From assembly GCA_026986575.1 (NCBI GenBank), contig JALSOH010000006.1:248001-312000 (forward strand): a stretch of 64,000 bases of DNA, written 5' to 3'. The first letter of the stretch is position 1. The number at the start of each line of letters is the position of its first letter. A model generated the notes under the pieces. It searched no databases, had not been told where the DNA came from, and saw only the letters and a list, made by a program, of their open reading frames with translations. The stretch is from Thermoproteota archaeon. GTDB lineage: Archaea > Korarchaeota > Korarchaeia > Korarchaeales > Korarchaeaceae. This document shows, piece by piece, positions 30,489-39,286 of this stretch. The translations under genes and the position numbers were made by a program.

Positions 30489-31508
30489 ATGAACAGGAGA
30501 GTAGCCCTCTTTCTAGCCCTATCGTTCGTACTCGTGTTCGGCGCCACCGTTTTTCCGTTGTCCGCCCAGAAGAAGAAAGTCGTTGGCTTAGACGTAGCCC
30601 CAGGAAGAGTCAAGGACCTAGACGCCGAGATCGGTCAGAAATATCTGAAGAAGCTCAAGGACTACCTGACGTCTTGGGGCTACGAGGTAAAGGAGCTGAC
30701 TCAGCTGACACCCGAGTCCCTGAAGGGCGTCGATGTACTGATAATCGGTAAGATGAAGGACTACAACAGCAAGTTCTCCCCATCCGAGGTGCAGGCTATC
30801 GCCAGCTGGTTCAAACAGGGAGGAAAGCTTCTATGGGTTGGAGCTGACTCCGACTACGTAGAGCCCTATCTCAAGCCCGAAGATGTTGGATTCAAGGCTG
30901 AGGAGCCCAACAAGATACTGTCGGCTGTAGGTTCGTCCATAAGGATAGAGTACGCTAGCCTGGAGGATCCTGAGTCCAACGCCGGTGCGGCCTACAGGGT
31001 CGTGAGCTACAAGGCCAATCATCAGGGATGGGCTGCAGAGATAACCAAGGGAGCCGATAAGGTCCTCTTCCACGGACCCACTCTCTTAGCCGGATACAAG
31101 GATGGAAAGTTCGTCCCGTTCGACCAGGTAGTGAGCGACACGTGTGTCTGGCTCTACAGGAGCAGTGACAAGGGAACGGTTGTGAGCCACGACGGCGTAG
31201 ACCCGAAGGCCTATAGGGTGGGACAGACCGGTAGCTTCGTCGAAGCCGCTGCCGAGAAGATAGCTGTGGGCTCAACCTACAGCAAGCTGATAGTAACTGG
31301 CGAGTCTCTCCTCGGTGACAGGACCATCATAAGCGAGGAGTATCACGGCGTCAAGCTGCAGGGCCCGACCTTCGTGAAGAACGCCCTGGCTTGGGGCACC
31401 ACAGTTGAGAGCGCCGGCCTGCCCATGGAGTGGATAGCTGCCATAATAGTGGTGATAATAATCGTCGTGGTCGGCGCCTACCTGGCCATGAAGAGGAAGA
31501 AGTCTTAA
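30489..31508 (+). CDS. Membrane-anchored surface protein with GATase1/DUF4350-like domain
   Basis: A 339-residue protein. ATG 30489 is preferred; it follows TTTATATTA (30451-30459) by about 34 bases and gives a clean signal peptide (ALFLALSFVLVFGATVFPLSAQ). The outside domain begins GLDVAPGRVKDLD and contains GVDVLIIGK, then IASWFKQGGKLLWVGADSDY. This is the strand-helix-strand pattern of glutamine-amidotransferase-like (DUF4350/GldG) domains, used as non-catalytic or carbohydrate-binding modules. A C-terminal helix (AAIIVVIIIVVVGAYLAM) and KRKKS anchor it. It is followed at 41 bases by a solute-binding protein gene, so it may dock or regulate transport at the surface. Function unknown. Confidence 0.65.
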   Translation: MNRRVALFLALSFVLVFGATVFPLSAQKKKVVGLDVAPGRVKDLDAEIGQKYLKKLKDYLTSWGYEVKELTQLTPESLKGVDVLIIGKMKDYNSKFSPSEVQAIASWFKQGGKLLWVGADSDYVEPYLKPEDVGFKAEEPNKILSAVGSSIRIEYASLEDPESNAGAAYRVVSYKANHQGWAAEITKGADKVLFHGPTLLAGYKDGKFVPFDQVVSDTCVWLYRSSDKGTVVSHDGVDPKAYRVGQTGSFVEAAAEKIAVGSTYSKLIVTGESLLGDRTIISEEYHGVKLQGPTFVKNALAWGTTVESAGLPMEWIAAIIVVIIIVVVGAYLAMKRKKS

Positions 31509-31549
31509 GTCTCCTCCTCCCCCCTCTTTTTCCCCGAAGGTGGTGCTCC

Positions 31550-32950
31550 GTGAACGCCAAGTATTTGCTTATAGTGGTCGCGATCTTGGTGATCGGTGTC
31601 GCGGCCCTTTTCCTGCTCAAGCCGAGCGGTGAGACGACAACCACTACTCAACAAACTCAGAAGGGCATAGTCCTGAAGATAATAACGAGGCATGCCAGCG
31701 AGATCCAAGAAGTAACTAGGGAGAGGTTTCTAAAGACGGACATAGCCAAGAAGTACAACATAGTTGATCTACAGTTCTACAGCCCCCATGTTGCCCTATG
31801 GAGAGATACTATACTCAAGCAGGAACCGGACGTGGCTTGGGGTGGGGGGCCTGCGTTATTCAATGAGCTGATCAGGCAGGGGCTCTTGGCACCGATAACA
31901 GACCCAGATGCTGTCAAAGAGATTGAGAGCCTTCCTGACAAGATAGGAGGCTCTGAGATAAAACACTACGAGAATGGTAAGCTCATGTGGGTCGCCGCTG
32001 CCATCTCCTCGTTCGGTTTCAGCGTAAACGAACCTCTACTCAAGAAGTACGGTCTACCGGAGCCTAAATCCTGGAAAGACTTGGCGAGCCCGGAGATGGC
32101 CAAGATCCTGCCCAAACCAGCTATATCCTATGCTAGGGCCCTCACCTCTACATCTCACACTAGGATATACCAGATCATACTCCAGAAGTACGGGTGGGAC
32201 GAGGGATGGGAGATCTTAGCTAGGATGGCCGCCAACGGCAGGCCGTACGGCGGTTCAGTGGAGGCTCTCACTGCTGTGGAGACTGGGGAGACCCCTATAG
32301 GCATAATGATCGATTTCTACGGATACGGGGCCCAGATCGAGTTCCCCGGACTGAAGTACATACTCCCGTACAATGAGTCCATAGTAAACGGTGATCCTAT
32401 CGCCCTCCTGAAAACTTCAAAGCATCCAGACGCCGCGCAGGCATTCATAAAGTGGGTGATTTCGGTGGAGGGCCAGGAGATATGGCTCCACAAGAAGATA
32501 AACAGGATGCCCGTCAGGGCCGATGTGTTCGACACTCCCGAGGGTAAGGAGAGGCCCGACCTCAAGAGGGCCTACGAGCAGACCGTCAACAACATAGGCA
32601 TACCCTTCGACGAGAAGTTAGCCACGGAGATCCTGTTCTCCCTCAAGTACTACTTCGACTCGGTGTACTGCGATCCTCACGACCAGCTCGTGAGGACATG
32701 GGCGAAGCTGGTCAAGGCATACAAGGCAGGCAAGCTGACCGAGGAGCAGTTCAAGGAGTTCTCTAGGGAGCTGGGAAGACCACTCACTTGGACCGAGGAC
32801 GGCAAGCAGGTCACCTTCACACTGGAATACGCCAAACAGATCAATGAGAAATTGAGGGACACAGCCTTCGCCAACAAGATGCAGAAGATCTGGAGACAGG
32901 CCGCGGTAGAAAGGTACGAGAAGCTTTACGAGGAGATACCCAACCCCTGA
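31550..32950 (+). CDS. Extracellular solute-binding protein (family 1 type), orphan
   Basis: A 466-residue protein started at GTG 31550 with AGGTGGT upstream; the frame is open further left but only through the preceding gene. An N-terminal hydrophobic anchor (YLLIVVAILVIGVAALFLL) is followed by a Thr-rich linker (ETTTTTQQTQ). The binding-protein fold shows KIITRHASEIQEVTRERFL, GLPEPKSWKDLASPEM, and NGDPIALLKTSKHPDAAQAFIKWV. It resembles iron(III)- or polyamine-type binding proteins. No permease or ATPase lies nearby, so it must share one encoded elsewhere or act otherwise. Ligand unknown. Confidence 0.8.
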   Translation: MNAKYLLIVVAILVIGVAALFLLKPSGETTTTTQQTQKGIVLKIITRHASEIQEVTRERFLKTDIAKKYNIVDLQFYSPHVALWRDTILKQEPDVAWGGGPALFNELIRQGLLAPITDPDAVKEIESLPDKIGGSEIKHYENGKLMWVAAAISSFGFSVNEPLLKKYGLPEPKSWKDLASPEMAKILPKPAISYARALTSTSHTRIYQIILQKYGWDEGWEILARMAANGRPYGGSVEALTAVETGETPIGIMIDFYGYGAQIEFPGLKYILPYNESIVNGDPIALLKTSKHPDAAQAFIKWVISVEGQEIWLHKKINRMPVRADVFDTPEGKERPDLKRAYEQTVNNIGIPFDEKLATEILFSLKYYFDSVYCDPHDQLVRTWAKLVKAYKAGKLTEEQFKEFSRELGRPLTWTEDGKQVTFTLEYAKQINEKLRDTAFANKMQKIWRQAAVERYEKLYEEIPNP

Positions 32951-33037: not shown

Positions 33038-33466
33038 ATGCCTTATATGAAGGTTGGAGATCTCCTGAAGGGGTATGGATTCATAAGCGTTACCCCCGAC
33101 AAGACTGTGAGAGAAGCGGCTAAGGTGATGGCGAACAAGGGGATCGGCTTCTTGGTGGTCGTGGACTCGAGTGATCCCCGAAGGGTGGTAGGGGTCCTCT
33201 CGGAGAGGGACATTATAAGGGCCTTAGCTAGCAACAAAGAGGACGCCAAGGTCGAGGAGCTCATGACCAAGGATGTCGTCACGGTAAAAGACACGGACAC
33301 CCTTTACAAGGCCGCTAAGCTTATGAGGGAGCACAGCATTAGGCACCTCGTCGTGGTTAATGAGGACGGAATCCCAGTAGGTGTGCTCAGCATAAGAGAT
33401 CTGACCTATGAGGAGGGCGCGCTCAAGGCCCTCGCCGAGGAAATAGAGAGCGAGTTCTCCCCCTGA
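33038..33466 (+). CDS. Two-CBS-domain protein
   Basis: A 142-residue protein from ATG 33038, with GAAGAGG just before it; GTG 33020 in frame is an alternative, since CTTTTTTAG lies near 33000. Two CBS domains fill the protein. The first reads ISVTPDKTVREAAKVMANKGIGFLVVVD with GVLSERDIIRAL. The second reads VTVKDTDTLYKAAKLMREHSIRHLVVV with GVLSIRDL. CBS pairs bind adenine nucleotides and regulate partners. No partner is fused. The 3' end overlaps the convergent phosphatase gene by 44 bases. Confidence 0.9.
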   Translation: MPYMKVGDLLKGYGFISVTPDKTVREAAKVMANKGIGFLVVVDSSDPRRVVGVLSERDIIRALASNKEDAKVEELMTKDVVTVKDTDTLYKAAKLMREHSIRHLVVVNEDGIPVGVLSIRDLTYEEGALKALAEEIESEFSP

Positions 33467-33923
33467 AGTAGGTGTAATAGAACCAGACCGCATCATACTG
33501 CTGTTGAGTCTCGATGGAGCATGGCCTCATGGATCTGAGGTGCTCGATGGCTTCATCCGGCCGCATTCCCTTTGAGACGAAGTAGGCGGCTAGGACGGTG
33601 CCAGTCCTCCCGCAACCCGCCAAGCAGTGGACCAACACCTTCCTTCCCTCCTCAACTTTCTGGTTGATCAGGTCGACTATCTGAGCGAGGAGTTCTACGG
33701 GCGGGGCCGAGAAGTTCTCGATGGGAAAGGAGTAATGCTCCATTCCCAACTCCTTTATCCTCTCGATCACCCGCTCGTCATACTCCTCCAGCCTCACGAG
33801 CGATACCACTACCTTTATCCCCTTGTTGGCCAGCCAGTCGATCTCTTCTGATGAGTAAGGAAGAGCGGAGCCAGCTACATGCTCGTCCACGAAGGAGAAG
33901 TTCCCCGGTTTTCTCAATCTCAT
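33423..33923 (-). CDS. Dual-specificity protein phosphatase-like enzyme
   Basis: A 166-residue protein started at ATG 33923, which overlaps the stop of the upstream fusion gene in an ATGA; a longer frame to 33932 exists. The cysteine phosphatase signature HCLAGCGRTGTV has Cys100 and Arg106. Upstream, FPIENFSAPP occupies the place of the general-acid loop, where an Asp is usual but Glu/Asn are seen here. It is the last gene of a long leftward operon that includes a metal ABC transporter, a NikR-like protein and the MFS-PhoU fusion. Substrate unknown; protein Ser/Thr/Tyr phosphate is typical of the family. Confidence 0.86.
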   Translation of the reverse strand: MRLRKPGNFSFVDEHVAGSALPYSSEEIDWLANKGIKVVVSLVRLEEYDERVIERIKELGMEHYSFPIENFSAPPVELLAQIVDLINQKVEEGRKVLVHCLAGCGRTGTVLAAYFVSKGMRPDEAIEHLRSMRPCSIETQQQYDAVWFYYTYFRGRTRSLFPRRGP

Positions 33924-35737
33924 ACCGGCCAAGCCATGTGCTTGAACGCTATAACCCTTAACACGTCTGACGCGTCTTCAACGGCGTCTATCATGTTCTC
34001 AAAGAGCTCCACAAAGTCCCTCAGGTTCATGAGCTTGACCACATTCATCTCCACGTGGAGCAGCTCCTCCATAGCCTGCTGGTGGAGCTCGTCGAACACC
34101 GACTCAAGCGTGTCGATCTCGCTCACAATCTCTAAGGATGACTCTATGTCCTCTCTCATGATCTCTATGGACCTAAAAAGCCTGTTTGAGATCCATTTGG
34201 AGATCCTAGCCATCTCCTCCATGAGCTTCCTTATTCTCTGGGGTATATCGTCTGGATCTAGAGTCCTTAGCCTCCTAGAGGCGCCTAGAGCGAAAGAGGC
34301 TACCCTGTCCACCCTGCCTACGAGCCTAGCGAAGTCAGCCTTATCTTGGCCCGAGAGGCTGCTGAACCAGAGCTGCCTGTCTATGGCTATCCTGATCTCA
34401 TCGGCCTGCCTCTCATACTCCTTAACCATCTTGAAATTCCTCTCATCTCTTACCCCTTTAGAGTAGCTGCTCACCATATCGGCAAAGCTCTCCACAGCTT
34501 TAACGACCTTGGAAGCGTGATCCACCACCATATCGTAGGCTGGCCAGAAGGGTCTCGTCTCCTTCATAAGGAAGATGAGGAATGATCCAGCAGCCATCAT
34601 CAGGGCAGTGAGCATGAAGGTACCTCCGAACCCATAGACCTCGCCCACGACTCCTAGGGTCAGGGCACCGGTCATATAGCCGAAGTCCCTGAGCGACGTA
34701 TACAGGCCCATTGAACGCCCCCTTACCGTGGGCGGGGCTGCGTCAGCCGAGATGGCGGGAAGGATGGGGTAGTAGAGGCCCACACCCAGCCCCAAGGTGG
34801 CGGAGGCCAGAGCTAGGTAGAGGGGATCTCTCAGGGAGTGGAGGAGATATATGCTGGCGGCCTTGATGGAGAACCCCATGAAGATGGGGATCCTCCTACC
34901 GAAAACATCCGATATCCTCCCGGAGAACGGCATCAGGAGGGCCCAAGAGAGGGTGTTCAGACCCTGTATGAAACCTATTTGGGTGGTCCCTAACCCCAAG
35001 GAACTCAAGTAAAGGGGTAAGAGCCCCCATACGAGCGCATCAGAGAACTGAGCCACGTGGCCTAGGAAGTAGGTGAGCCTCAGGGTCCCGCTTCTCAAAC
35101 ACATGGAATACGCTTGCACCGTGGGTATCTCCTCTATTTCTGCTTCCTCGACCCTTGTTTCGGAGATGCCCACCAAGGAAAGAACAAGGGCTAGGGCCGA
35201 GGCGACCAATGTTATGTAGAAGGCATCAGGTATGTTCCTGACCTCGGACACGTAGCCTCCTAGAAACGATCCCACAGTATATCCGCCGTAAACTGAGGCC
35301 TCCATTATGCCTAGGCTGAGCCCGTGCCTCTCCCTCCCTCCAGCCTCCGATAGAACTATCATCACGCCAGAATCGACCAACCCTTGGCTCCAACCCATCA
35401 TGAGAGAGGCGGCAGCCACCATTAACAGATCCTTGCTGTATATGAGCAGGAGGGTACCGGCGAAGAACACTCCCGCTCCCAAAACGACAGCTACCTTCCT
35501 GCCCAACTTGTCCGCTAGGTATCCGGCCAGCAAGTCAGCCAGACCCTTGAAGGCTCCGAATGAGAGTATGGGGAGGAGCACGATGAAGAGGTAAGAATAG
35601 GCCTCTTGGACGAATCCACCCACGTACAGCGGGAGGACCGCTCTCTGCACACCCATGCCCGCCCCTATGGACAGGGCAGTCATGGCAGCAGAGACCATTA
35701 TCCTTCCGGAGTCTCTCCCGCTCAATCCTCGAATCAC
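33920..35737 (-). CDS. MFS transporter fused to a C-terminal PhoU/DUF47-like domain
   Basis: A 605-residue fusion. Residues about 15-400 are a 12-helix MFS carrier; MFS motif A appears twice, as GYLADKLGRKVAV in the first half and GRISDVFGRRIP in the second. Residues about 405-605 are soluble and helical and match the DUF47/PhoU-related family. Examples are MVVDHASKVVKAVESFADMV, KEYERQADEIRIAIDRQLW with the family's E-x-x-A-D-E-I, and VELFENMIDAVEDASDVLRVIAF. DUF47 proteins are normally encoded beside Pit phosphate carriers and regulate them. Here the regulator is covalently joined to an MFS protein, so phosphate or another anion/metal is the likely cargo. It overlaps its neighbours in the operon by four bases on each side. 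Confidence 0.85.
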   Translation of the reverse strand: MIRGLSGRDSGRIMVSAAMTALSIGAGMGVQRAVLPLYVGGFVQEAYSYLFIVLLPILSFGAFKGLADLLAGYLADKLGRKVAVVLGAGVFFAGTLLLIYSKDLLMVAAASLMMGWSQGLVDSGVMIVLSEAGGRERHGLSLGIMEASVYGGYTVGSFLGGYVSEVRNIPDAFYITLVASALALVLSLVGISETRVEEAEIEEIPTVQAYSMCLRSGTLRLTYFLGHVAQFSDALVWGLLPLYLSSLGLGTTQIGFIQGLNTLSWALLMPFSGRISDVFGRRIPIFMGFSIKAASIYLLHSLRDPLYLALASATLGLGVGLYYPILPAISADAAPPTVRGRSMGLYTSLRDFGYMTGALTLGVVGEVYGFGGTFMLTALMMAAGSFLIFLMKETRPFWPAYDMVVDHASKVVKAVESFADMVSSYSKGVRDERNFKMVKEYERQADEIRIAIDRQLWFSSLSGQDKADFARLVGRVDRVASFALGASRRLRTLDPDDIPQRIRKLMEEMARISKWISNRLFRSIEIMREDIESSLEIVSEIDTLESVFDELHQQAMEELLHVEMNVVKLMNLRDFVELFENMIDAVEDASDVLRVIAFKHMAWPV

Positions 35738-36280
35738 CTGAGGGTCTCAAACTCCTCCTTGAGGAACTCGGGTAGAAGGGCGCACACCTCCCTATAAAAA
35801 TCGACCCGGGAATTGGCCCTCACGCACTCGCAGAACTGGGGCACCCACTGGAGCAGGTGGTCCTCCAAGAAGGATTTAGCCTCATCCAAGGCATCCTCCT
35901 CACCTAATAGATAGAGGTAGCGGAGGAATTCGAGCTCCGCTGATATATGTTCTGGGAGGTCCTTGAATTCGTCGGAAACATCGACGCCGAAGGCCCTCAT
36001 CCTGTCCTGAACGTCAACGGCTAGGTGGGACATGAGCACCTTATCCTCAGTCCTATATACCGATTCGTAGGGGGGAGGGTATATCCTTGCCAAATCTGAA
36101 GAGCCTTACGTACTCTTGATTCATTAAATGGGGATCCTCCACCCTTAAATCAGATTGGGGCCACCTCTCCCTAACTTTCTCCAGTAGAGACTCAATTTCC
36201 TTCACCCACTCTTCCGTGGGCCTCATGAACGCCAAGGTGAAGAACTCGAGCAGCTGGGCGCTCTCCTCTCTCCCACTCAT
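35734..36280 (-). pseudogene. TorD/DmsD-like redox-enzyme chaperone, split by a frameshift
   Basis: Two overlapping frames together make one TorD-family protein of about 181 residues. The N-terminal part from ATG 36280 reads GREESAQLLEFFTLAF then MNQEYVRLFRFGKDIPSP. The C-terminal part continues PYESVYRTEDKVLMSH, then HISAELEFLRYLYLL, and HLLQWVPQFCECV. The frame changes at a run of six G (plus strand, 36070-36075); removing one base restores one continuous family protein. The start is supported by CCTTAATATG (minus strand, 36301-36310). TorD proteins fold or proofread molybdoenzymes and related enzymes before Tat export. It may be a sequencing error, a real mutation, or programmed frameshifting. 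Confidence 0.78.
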
Positions 36281-36311
36281 AATCTGGGGTGGAAGCCCCC
36301 TCATATTAAGG

Positions 36312-36698
36312 TTATCTAAGACAGCCGAGCGGCAAGTATCTCTCGATGACACCCTTTATCTTCCTCAAGGAGCTCTCAAGCTCAAGGATAATTTGAGAAT
36401 CTCCCTCGACGAAGCTCACGTCCACGCACGCGCCCTTAGTGTGATGGTGCGTTCTTGTGATCACGCAGCTCCCATACCTCTCCAGCACTCTGGAGACCAG
36501 CTCGCTGCTCCTCCCCTCGGATACCACAATAAGCACGCCTCTGCATCTATGGGGGGTTAGGAGGTGAACCCTGTCTTCTATGACCTCCACCAATATGCTC
36601 TGTATTAGGGAGGACCTGCTCATCCCCAGCTTGGACGACAGCTCATCTATCTTCTCTACCAAGTCCTCGGGGAGGGAGATACCAAACCTCCTCTTCAT
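36312..36698 (-). CDS. NikR-like metal-responsive regulator
   Basis: A 128-residue protein. The N-terminal RHH domain is RRFGISLPEDLVEKIDELSSKLGMSRSSLIQS. The C-terminal ACT-like part has GVLIVVSEGR, and VITRTHHHTKGACVDVSFVEGD. Histidines 84-86 and Cys91 occupy the NikR nickel-site region (H-x-H-x5-C in classical NikR), but the spacing is not identical, so metal preference could differ. It lies 6 bases after the ABC permease gene. It probably controls the divergent transporter promoter, where GTGCAC repeats are found. Confidence 0.82.
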   Translation of the reverse strand: MKRRFGISLPEDLVEKIDELSSKLGMSRSSLIQSILVEVIEDRVHLLTPHRCRGVLIVVSEGRSSELVSRVLERYGSCVITRTHHHTKGACVDVSFVEGDSQIILELESSLRKIKGVIERYLPLGCLR

Positions 36699-36704
36699 AC
36701 TACC

Positions 36705-37511
36705 TTACCTTCCCCTCAGTAGGGATATCAGGTAGAATCCCAGCATAACGATACCTATAACCCCCGAAGGTGCCAATCCGGTGGCCACGCTTATCAGCAG
36801 GCCCATCAGGCCGCCAGCCAGCGACAGGAGGAACCCGAGTATCACTGCCACTCTACCGCTCTTGGCCAGAGCGGACGCGGTTATGCCAGGGAGGAGGACC
36901 ATCACGTGCTCGACCACGAATCCAACGGCCTTCAACAGTCCAACGGTGGCTATGGCTAAAGAGGCGACCATCATAGCATCGTAGAGGGAGGCCCTGACAC
37001 CCGACAGCCTGACGAAGTCCCTGTCCACCCCTATGAGTATGTGCTCCCTCAGGAAGGGAACTGTCAGGACGAGAACTATAGCAGAGACGGCGATTGTGAA
37101 CCAGACGTCCTCCCAAGTCACAAGTAGGGGATCCCCGATTATGTAGGACCAGACGCTGGTCTCCATCGGGAAGGCCGTTAATATGTAGTATAGGGATATG
37201 GTGGTAAGGGAGACGCTTACCGAGACGAATATCGCTGTGGCAGAGTCGGGCCTGACTCCCCTAGATATGAGGAGAGAGACCGTGGACACTAAGATGAGGC
37301 TGAAGACTATCGAGCAGATCTCGAAGGGGCACCCCAAGAGGTTCATCGTTATTATAGCCAGTAGAGCCGAGAGGAGGGCGGAGTGGGGAAGAGCTCCAGC
37401 TAGGAAGAGGAGCCTCCTCGCCACCACCACGGGGCTGAGCACCCCGTAGACAATGGAGGCGAGGCCCACCACTATGATCCATCTGGGATCCAGTACGAGC
37501 TCAAATGGCAT
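36705..37511 (-). CDS. Metal-type ABC transporter permease (ABC-3 family)
   Basis: A 268-residue membrane protein with seven to nine hydrophobic segments, of the ZnuB/MntB family. It has SPVVVARRLLFLAGALPHSALLS near the N-terminus and LIGVDRDFVRLSGVRASLYDAMMV in the middle. The C-terminal region has AVGFVVEHVMVLLPGITASALAKSG. ATG 37511 is preferred (11-base overlap with the ATPase gene). ATG 37517 and a longer frame to 37541 are possible. It works with the ATPase and the divergently encoded binding protein to import a divalent metal; which one is open. Confidence 0.88.
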   Translation of the reverse strand: MPFELVLDPRWIIVVGLASIVYGVLSPVVVARRLLFLAGALPHSALLSALLAIITMNLLGCPFEICSIVFSLILVSTVSLLISRGVRPDSATAIFVSVSVSLTTISLYYILTAFPMETSVWSYIIGDPLLVTWEDVWFTIAVSAIVLVLTVPFLREHILIGVDRDFVRLSGVRASLYDAMMVASLAIATVGLLKAVGFVVEHVMVLLPGITASALAKSGRVAVILGFLLSLAGGLMGLLISVATGLAPSGVIGIVMLGFYLISLLRGR

Positions 37512-38271
37512 AGCCATCCACCACGTGGACGCACTTTTCAACTATGAAGACGCTCCTACCGTACACCTTGCTTAGCAGCTCCTCCTTTATGACCTGATCG
37601 GGAGGACCCAGCGCGACTATCCCCCTGTTCACGACCATTATCAGCTTGGCCCTGTCGAGGAACATGCTTGGATCGTGGCTGCTCACCATCACCAGCTTGG
37701 ATGAGGACATCTCCTTGATCATCCTGACCAAGTCCACCCTTCCCATAGGGTCCACCGCAGTAAGGGGCTCGTCCATTATCAGGATGGAGGGATCCCAAAC
37801 TAGGGCCCTAGCTATGAAGACCCTCTGTCTCTGGCCCCCGGACAGCTCTGAAAGTGGTTTGCCTGCTATATCATCCACACCCATCCTTCTAAGAGCTGAC
37901 TCTATCCTCTCCCTCTCGTCCTTGGGGAAGGAGAGCCTAGGAGGCCTCCTCCTCAGGGCTATGGCCGACTCGACTATCTCCCTGACGCTAACAGGAAAGC
38001 CGTAATCCTCCCCCTTCCACTGAGGAACGTATCCTATGAGCTTGCCAGCCCTCTCTGGCCTGCCGGTCACATCCTCTCCGTTGATTAGGACTTTCCCCTT
38101 GACGGTTATCAGTCCCAAAAGCGCCTTGAACAGTGTGGTCTTTCCAGCGCCATTGGGACCCATCACCACCACTAGACCGGGCCCCTCGAGTCGAAATTCC
38201 TCGTTAGAGAATATCTCCTCATCACCGTAGCTTACCCGGAGCCCCCTCACCTCTAGGGTCAGCGCGCTCAT
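37501..38271 (-). CDS. Metal-type ABC transporter ATP-binding protein
   Basis: A 256-residue ABC ATPase. Walker A is GPNGAGKTT, the signature is LSGGQRQRV, and Walker B with D-loop is ILIMDEPLTAVDP. The switch region is MVSSHDPSMF. ATG 38271 is chosen because it lies 26 bases from the shared TATA centre (leaderless). The open frame continues to 38424, but only across the divergent promoter and gene. First gene of the leftward operon ATPase-permease-NikR-TorD-MFS/PhoU-phosphatase. Confidence 0.9.
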   Translation of the reverse strand: MSALTLEVRGLRVSYGDEEIFSNEEFRLEGPGLVVVMGPNGAGKTTLFKALLGLITVKGKVLINGEDVTGRPERAGKLIGYVPQWKGEDYGFPVSVREIVESAIALRRRPPRLSFPKDERERIESALRRMGVDDIAGKPLSELSGGQRQRVFIARALVWDPSILIMDEPLTAVDPMGRVDLVRMIKEMSSSKLVMVSSHDPSMFLDRAKLIMVVNRGIVALGPPDQVIKEELLSKVYGRSVFIVEKCVHVVDGYAI

Positions 38272-38324
38272 CGTGCACAAAGATGGCATATCAAATATAA
38301 AGGAGTGCACACTCCTAAGGGCGA
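38271..38324. promoter_or_regulatory. Symmetric divergent promoter with one shared TATA and GTGCAC repeats
   Basis: The AAATATAAA core (near 38293-38301) reads TTTATATTT on the other strand. Its centre is about 26 bases from the ATG at 38271 leftward and from the ATG at 38324 rightward. One element can therefore serve two leaderless transcripts. GTGCAC occurs at 38273-38278 and again at 38305-38310, exactly 32 bases apart (three helical turns) and overlapping the initiation zones. The NikR-like protein of the leftward operon is the natural candidate to bind them; this is inferred. Confidence 0.6.
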
Positions 38325-39286
38325 TGAGGGCGGGCGCTCTCTTACTGCTGCTGGCTCTAACTATGGCAGTGCAATCGACTGAGGGCTCACCTAAGGGCCT
38401 CAACTTAGTCGTGACCTTCTCCAATCTGAAGTACGATGTGGATCTCTTAGCATGCCCCTCCGACAGCGTGGCCTCCCTTGTACCACCCGGAGTCGATCCG
38501 CACGACTACGAGCTCAAACCGGAGGACGTAAACTTGCTAAGAGATGCGGACATCATAGTATCCACGGCTCATGCCCCCTTCGAGAGACTCATCAGGGATA
38601 AGGTTACCTCGGGTGAGATAAGAGCGGAGTTGGTGGAAATCCCCAAGCTGGGGCTCAAGATCCTAACGAATCCAGCAACTAAGCAGCCCAACTACCACAT
38701 GCCCATCTACGATCCCGACAACTACCTCAAGTTCATGGAGCGTCTGAGCGGGATAATGGCTAGGAAGAACCCCGAGTGCGCCTCCCAGTATATGGAGAGA
38801 TATGATCGGGTAAGGGAGAAGATCCTGAAGATAAAAATGGAAGCGCCCCGCTTGAACCTGTCGGCCGTCGCCGCGAGTCCCGTCGCTCAGTACGCGATTG
38901 AATGGACCGGGGTGAAGGTGAGGTACCTGCTCATAAAGGAGAGGGGGGTTCCAGCGACGCCTCCCGAGCTGGCGGAGATCAGGAGGAGGGCTCTCACCGG
39001 AGAGATAGGGGTCATGGTATTGGCAGGTAATGCGAGGACCCCGCTTAACAAGAAGGCTGTGGAAATGGCTGAGGAGATGGGCATACCTTGGATAAACGTC
39101 CCATCACCGCTCGAACCAAGGAGCATCCCTGAAAAGCTTGAGGACGTAGTAAGGTCCCTCTCTAACATTGGAGAAGTTAGATCGGCGGGGATGATATACG
39201 GGTATATCCCGCTGATCATCACAGTGGTTGTGATGATCGCCTCACTATCCGCGGCGTTCTACCTGCTTAGGAGGCAACCTAATTAG
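38324..39286 (+). CDS. Metal-type ABC transporter substrate-binding protein (cluster A-I), membrane anchored
   Basis: A 320-residue protein. ATG 38324 is 26 bases from the TATA centre; the frame is open to 38273 but only across the promoter. A signal peptide (GALLLLLALTMAVQSTEG) leads a ZnuA-like fold. Possible metal ligands are His60 (GVDPHDYEL), His83 (STAHAPFE) and His125 (NYHMP). There is no His-rich loop. A C-terminal helix (IPLIITVVVMIASLSAAFYLL) anchors it in the membrane, a common archaeal arrangement. It works with the divergent ATPase and permease genes. Confidence 0.85.
   Translation: MRAGALLLLLALTMAVQSTEGSPKGLNLVVTFSNLKYDVDLLACPSDSVASLVPPGVDPHDYELKPEDVNLLRDADIIVSTAHAPFERLIRDKVTSGEIRAELVEIPKLGLKILTNPATKQPNYHMPIYDPDNYLKFMERLSGIMARKNPECASQYMERYDRVREKILKIKMEAPRLNLSAVAASPVAQYAIEWTGVKVRYLLIKERGVPATPPELAEIRRRALTGEIGVMVLAGNARTPLNKKAVEMAEEMGIPWINVPSPLEPRSIPEKLEDVVRSLSNIGEVRSAGMIYGYIPLIITVVVMIASLSAAFYLLRRQPN

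Follow-up and report, generated by a model that had tools for sequence, protein, structure and literature searches.

A Major Facilitator Carrier Fused to a DUF47/PhoU-Type Domain in Archaea: A Candidate Self-Regulated Carrier

In the 64,000-nucleotide stretch of DNA from a Thermoproteota archaeon that we analysed (hereafter the window), an MFS carrier and a DUF47 domain are joined in one chain, and the join is genuine. This MFS-DUF47 fusion is best read as an added form of the known design in which a transporter is combined with a PhoU domain. We propose, with a probability of roughly 40%, that it is an ion-coupled MFS carrier that exports a phosphate-type anion and has a regulatory domain of the PitR (DUF47) type built into the same chain. 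PhoU-type proteins are believed to sense the state of phosphate transporters and to restrain them, by a mechanism that is poorly understood; a protein that unites a carrier with such a domain and is conserved across archaeal phyla would allow this coupling to be seen directly.

Domain Architecture and Structural Models

The claim that one 605-residue frame holds both an MFS carrier and a DUF47 domain was borne out by Pfam, which places significant matches to MFS_1 and to PhoU_div/DUF47 (PF01865) in the N-terminal and C-terminal parts of the same protein (Table 1). The first half belongs to the MFS superfamily by its profile match, its 12-helix fold and its two copies of motif A, and the tail belongs to DUF47/PhoU_div by its six-helix PhoU fold and by a profile score (74.2 bits) above the PF01865 gathering cut-off of 24.4 bits. 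Against TIGR00153, the equivalog model for stand-alone DUF47 proteins, the fusion scores 55-56 bits, below the curated cut-off of 104.3.

AlphaFold was run on the window protein together with nine relatives. The model of the whole fusion is a confident two-domain arrangement, with the predicted 12 MFS helices followed by a six-helix tail, and in Foldseek searches it falls on MFS structures, with OxlT as the best match, followed by NorA and others. The tail modelled alone matches the solved PhoU-like DUF47 proteins 3l39, 2iiu and 2olt (E 5.5e-7 to 4e-5; TM 0.73-0.81), with PhoU itself ranking after these three, and searching PDB sequences with the tail also retrieved 3l39, at 2e-5. Predicted models matched to solved structures thereby establish the folds of both domains, in agreement with the original prediction. 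A reading of the C-terminal approximately 200 residues as a generic coiled coil is ruled out by the PF01865 match and by the PhoU-like structures found with Foldseek.

Table 1. Features of the fusion gene and its surroundings (positions in the window)
Feature	Position	Strand	Details
MFS-DUF47 fusion gene	33920..35737	-	605 aa, GTG start; model mean pLDDT 87.7, pTM 0.80
MFS carrier, aa 1-395, 12 transmembrane helices	34553..35737	-	MFS_1, E 7.2e-39; model helices; Foldseek OxlT, NorA, VMAT2
DUF47/PhoU_div domain, aa 402-597, six helices	33947..34534	-	PF01865, E 1.2e-20; model pLDDT 94.1 (tail alone); Foldseek 2iiu, 2olt, 3l39
Motif A, copy 1, GYLADKLGRK, aa 72-81	35495..35524	-	Sequence; degenerate in some relatives
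Motif A, copy 2, GRISDVFGRR, aa 273-282	34892..34921	-	Sequence; conserved in relatives
Antiporter-type motif C, TM5, aa 143-161	35255..35311	-	G-x8-G-x3-G-[SA]-x2-[GA]-G
First E(D)xxxD motif, E442-RQA-D446	34400..34414	-	Invariant, 31 fusions
Second E(D)xxxD motif, D477-xxx-S481	34295..34309	-	Degenerate; position 481 compared across DUF47 sets
Third E(D)xxxD motif, E545-SVF-D549	34091..34105	-	Invariant, 31 fusions
Fourth acidic motif, E580-xxx-D584-xx-E587-D588-xx-D591	33965..34000	-	D584 is N in 8/31
Dual-specificity-type cysteine phosphatase gene (PTP-SAK/DSPc)	33423..33923	-	Adjoins the fusion also in L002-L007, L040, L046
TorD-like chaperone gene	35734..36352	-	Frameshift-split in the window
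NikR-like ribbon-helix-helix regulator	36312..36698	-	Between metal ABC genes and fusion
ZnuB/SloB-like metal ABC permease	36705..37541	-
MntA/ZnuC-like metal ABC ATPase	37501..38424	-

Distribution of the Fusion Among Archaea

Six close loci hold the full fusion in the named genome contigs that were scanned, and it is present in genera g1, g2, g4 and g5 of the window's family, with identity falling to approximately 33% in g5. Searching with a profile built from the fused DUF47 domains revealed the same architecture outside the window's phylum, in genomes G139 and G343. Within the phylum of G139, 27 genomes match a profile of the MFS half strongly; 25 of them have frames of 620-730 aa, all 15 of the long frames that were fetched carry both domains, and the two shorter matches (363 and 434 aa) begin close to contig ends. 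Across 345 archaeal genomes, 16 matches reached 4e-141 or lower, every one of them in a long, fused frame, and the nearest clearly unfused relative is a 400-aa protein (G050; 3e-52). The distinct fused copies number 31, from two archaeal phyla and with identity down to approximately 25%. The gene is missing in several genomes of family f1, some of them near-complete and from the same genus.

Because the single-chain architecture recurs in independent assemblies, the fusion is neither a chance event nor an assembly artefact of two separate genes, and the conservation in relatives that the original prediction had named as support extends to a second archaeal phylum. Genus members that lack the fusion gave weak DUF47 matches of 405-443 aa, of which one was checked (L048, 1195-2403, minus strand) and proved to be a PhoU-TrkA_C protein of 402 aa.

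A Second Attachment of DUF47 to an MFS Carrier

DUF47 is also joined to a different MFS, for which the best NCBIfam model in G048 and G034 is TIGR00887 (2.4e-125 and 2.6e-92); the same TIGR00887-like MFS plus DUF47 architecture occurs in G129 and G206, and other TIGR00887-like carriers are unfused, with frames of 466-495 aa. Phosphate:H+ symporter-like MFS proteins of this kind were found in other archaeal families at L038 (1749-3848, minus strand), L039 (4142-6091, plus strand), L069 and L078, with the TIGR00887 matches at L038 and L039 lying below the curated cut-off. They resemble the window-type fusion in having an MFS and a C-terminal DUF47 in one chain, but they belong to the TIGR00887/Sugar_tr MFS subfamily, form a separate DUF47 clade and retain the second acidic motif. 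A tree of 42 DUF47 domains, whose long branches make exact placement unsure, keeps the two fused sets separate and puts one stand-alone domain nearest the PHS set. Since the carrier halves come from different MFS subfamilies and the fused sets stand apart in this tree, DUF47 has been attached to MFS carriers at least twice. The transporter types paired with PhoU-family domains thereby come to include MFS carriers, and these from two independent lineages.

Conserved Residues of the Two Domains

Both copies of motif A named in the original prediction are present, and the second is highly conserved among the fusions (G280 and R281 in 31/31, G273 and D277 in 30/31). TM5 retains the spacing of what we take to be the antiporter motif C, with Ser/Ala replacing Pro and with the invariant Glu146 inside the motif; this modified motif is one of the exporter-like features of the MFS half, yet the antiporter reading drawn from it is weak, as the motif is without its proline. 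Charged residues in the predicted membrane helices are likewise conserved, R32, E146, D233 and D351 in all 31 fusions and K64 and H227 in 30 of them.

The tail acids E442, D446, E545, D549 and E580 are present in every one of the 31 fusions from the two phyla. E(D)xxxD is a motif associated with iron clusters in the Thermotoga PhoU protein (PMC5686610). Among the four such motifs of the fused tails, the first and third are invariant, the fourth is mostly kept and the second is lost at position 481, which is S, A or G in 31/31 distinct window-type fusions versus Asp in the full comparison set of 27 other DUF47 copies (23/23 stand-alone, 4/4 PHS-fused). Since all fusions have one degenerate DUF47 motif, the fused tail may have lost the ability to bind the usual metals.

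Gene Neighbourhood and a Possible Role in Metal Homeostasis

The fusion lies in a one-strand run consisting of a metal ABC ATPase, its permease, a NikR-like regulator, a TorD-like chaperone, the fusion and a phosphatase. At each end it shares four bases with a neighbour, its start with the stop of the upstream torD gene and its stop with the ATG of the phosphatase gene (..GTATGAGA..); the phosphatase carries the signature HCLAGCGR. This run is kept in L002, L003, L005/L046 and L007, and in L004 and L006 without torD, which was not found at these two fusion loci; L040 retains the phosphatase only, and none of the window's fusion neighbours is kept in g2, g4, g5 or the second phylum. The overlap with a phosphatase that might produce or sense phosphate, as had been suggested for it, thus stands, but the neighbour is kept only within the genus; it lends weak support to a phosphate role, and a phosphatase partnership as a general feature was rejected beyond the genus.

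Several further observations concern these loci. The TorD-like gene of the window has its frameshift near a C run (about 36062-36072), either a sequencing error or a true mutation; torD is in one frame in L002, L003, L005/L046 and L007. The NikR-like ribbon-helix-helix regulator is short and scores below all curated NikR cut-offs. In genus g5 (L041, 3051-3797 and 5583-7671; L042; L044), the fusion closely follows a TIM-barrel gene, with a creatininase-family gene and a conserved gene of 440-450 aa facing it, a neighbourhood quite unlike that of the window.

The gene run could be taken to mean that the fusion belongs to a NikR-like/ZnuCB-like operon and is a carrier for metal homeostasis, one that moves a divalent metal or a metal-phosphate complex and is regulated by its acidic DUF47 tail. 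Both in the window and at the closely related loci L002-L007, a NikR-like regulator precedes the fusion on the same strand, with the metal ABC genes also upstream where the contig reaches far enough; the acids E146, D233 and D351 of the predicted membrane helices are invariant, and Pit carriers move metal:phosphate complexes (PMC11389368). However, no metal operon surrounds the fusion in G001, g2, g4, g5 or the second phylum, and we regard a metal carrier as unlikely. As to the original prediction of a self-regulated carrier for phosphate or a metal-phosphate complex, the fusion architecture fits the self-regulated carrier, and the metal-phosphate part draws some support from this operon, in close relatives only.

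Phosphate Transport Genes of the Host Genome

The host genome has Pst and PhoU proteins, and the fusion is its sole DUF47 match. Searches of this genome gave no match to Pit (PF01384), none to the NptA-type domain PF02690, in place of which the fusion carries an MFS, and none to TIGR00887 at 1e-60. As the genome has no Pit, the fused DUF47 is without a Pit partner.

The fusion might accordingly be a phosphate importer that replaces the missing low-affinity uptake by Pit or NptA, with the DUF47 tail acting as its PitR. Besides the lack of both systems in the host genome, this reading can draw on the PHS-type carriers, which are importers in yeast and which likewise acquired DUF47. It is nonetheless improbable: the MFS half is exporter-like, Pst is present in the same genome, and Pit is also missing in genus members without the fusion. 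Replacement of a lost Pit is further unsupported in g2, which has both.

Relationship of the MFS Half

No curated phosphate-transporter model in NCBIfam matched the MFS half; all of its NCBIfam matches were below cut-off, with models of the multidrug type among them, and TIGR00887 was not among the best 25 NCBIfam matches of the fusion. The nearest solved MFS structures by profile are NorA (1.7e-18), YajR (3.9e-17) and VMAT. YajR and NorA, DHA1-type H+-coupled exporters, are thus the nearest solved relatives of the MFS half, but they differ from the fusion in having no DUF47 domain, and identity is low. Judged by such comparisons, the MFS half appears nearer to H+-coupled exporters (NorA, YajR, VMAT) and to OxlT than to known phosphate carriers. 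An exporter of drugs or metabolites unrelated to phosphate, its tail a structural or generic regulatory bundle, would suit these relatives, the C-terminal soluble domain that YajR also has and the one degenerate acidic motif of the tail, but it is doubtful given that the other acidic motifs are invariant, or nearly so, over two phyla and that DUF47 was independently attached to a phosphate:H+ symporter-like MFS.

Discussion

Transporters with a PhoU-type domain in one chain are already known (NptA), as are plant proteins that combine an MFS with a phosphate-regulatory domain (SPX-MFS), the SPX domain being, to our knowledge, unrelated to DUF47. NptA-type Na/Pi transporters and the related YjbB resemble the fusion as phosphate-linked transporters with a C-terminal, covalent PhoU-type domain, but they possess the Na_Pi_cotrans fold (PF02690) and not that of an MFS; in S. 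aureus, the PhoU domain of NptA affects Pi homeostasis (PMC13170248). There is precedent for the pairing of Pit with PitR (PMC13170248), and the regulatory domain of PitA-PitR stems from the same DUF47/PF01865 family, but the carrier has the Pit fold (PF01384) and the two are encoded by separate genes. The plant SPX-MFS proteins (PHT5/VPT) are Pi transporters that, like the fusion, hold an MFS and a phosphate-regulatory domain in one chain (PMC4821872); they differ in residing in a eukaryotic vacuolar membrane, and the likeness is one of domain layout. In open-licence papers, we found no description of the MFS-DUF47 architecture.

A DUF47 domain joined to a carrier most simply means a self-regulated carrier, and a regulated carrier with built-in control of the PhoU type is indeed what we consider quite probable. 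In the exporter that we propose, the DUF47 regulatory domain would sit on the cytoplasmic C-terminus, and the MFS half would carry an anion outward by proton antiport, the likeliest anion being inorganic phosphate or an ion that contains phosphate. Such an outward carrier could complement the Pst importer in the manner of a relief valve. The tail would sense the intracellular phosphate or metal status and open or close the carrier, a role that we liken to that of PhoU in NptA-type transporters or of SPX in the plant SPX-MFS proteins.

Phosphate is a plausible substrate, favoured by the DUF47 domain, by the independent fusion of DUF47 to a phosphate:H+ symporter-like MFS and by the conserved basic residues of the membrane helices; it is disfavoured by the MFS half, which matches no phosphate-transporter model, and by the presence of the fusion, which does not follow the loss of Pit. 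For a substrate that is phosphate or phosphorylated, we see the odds as evenly balanced. Export is slightly preferred over import, since exporter-like relatives and a Pst importer weakly favour it, as with YjbB, a Pi exporter (PMC11389368). The gene neighbourhood of the fusion, which differs between genera, counts against the proposed exporter, as do the missing proline of motif C and the degenerate second motif of the tail. Somewhat more tentatively still, the fusion may represent a fourth transporter-accessory pairing in phosphate homeostasis, in addition to Pst-PhoU, Pit-PitR and NptA-PhoU, namely an MFS exporter of phosphate or metal-phosphate with its own DUF47 regulator, widespread in archaea and joined at least two times.

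Two minor observations concern other genes of the host genome. An ABC substrate-binding protein is encoded in the window at 31430-32950 (plus strand), and its best NCBIfam model is phnS2 (2-aminoethylphosphonate binding), with a score below cut-off. Outside the window, contig C6 (343761-344624) encodes a PhoU protein of a length similar to that of the L048 protein.
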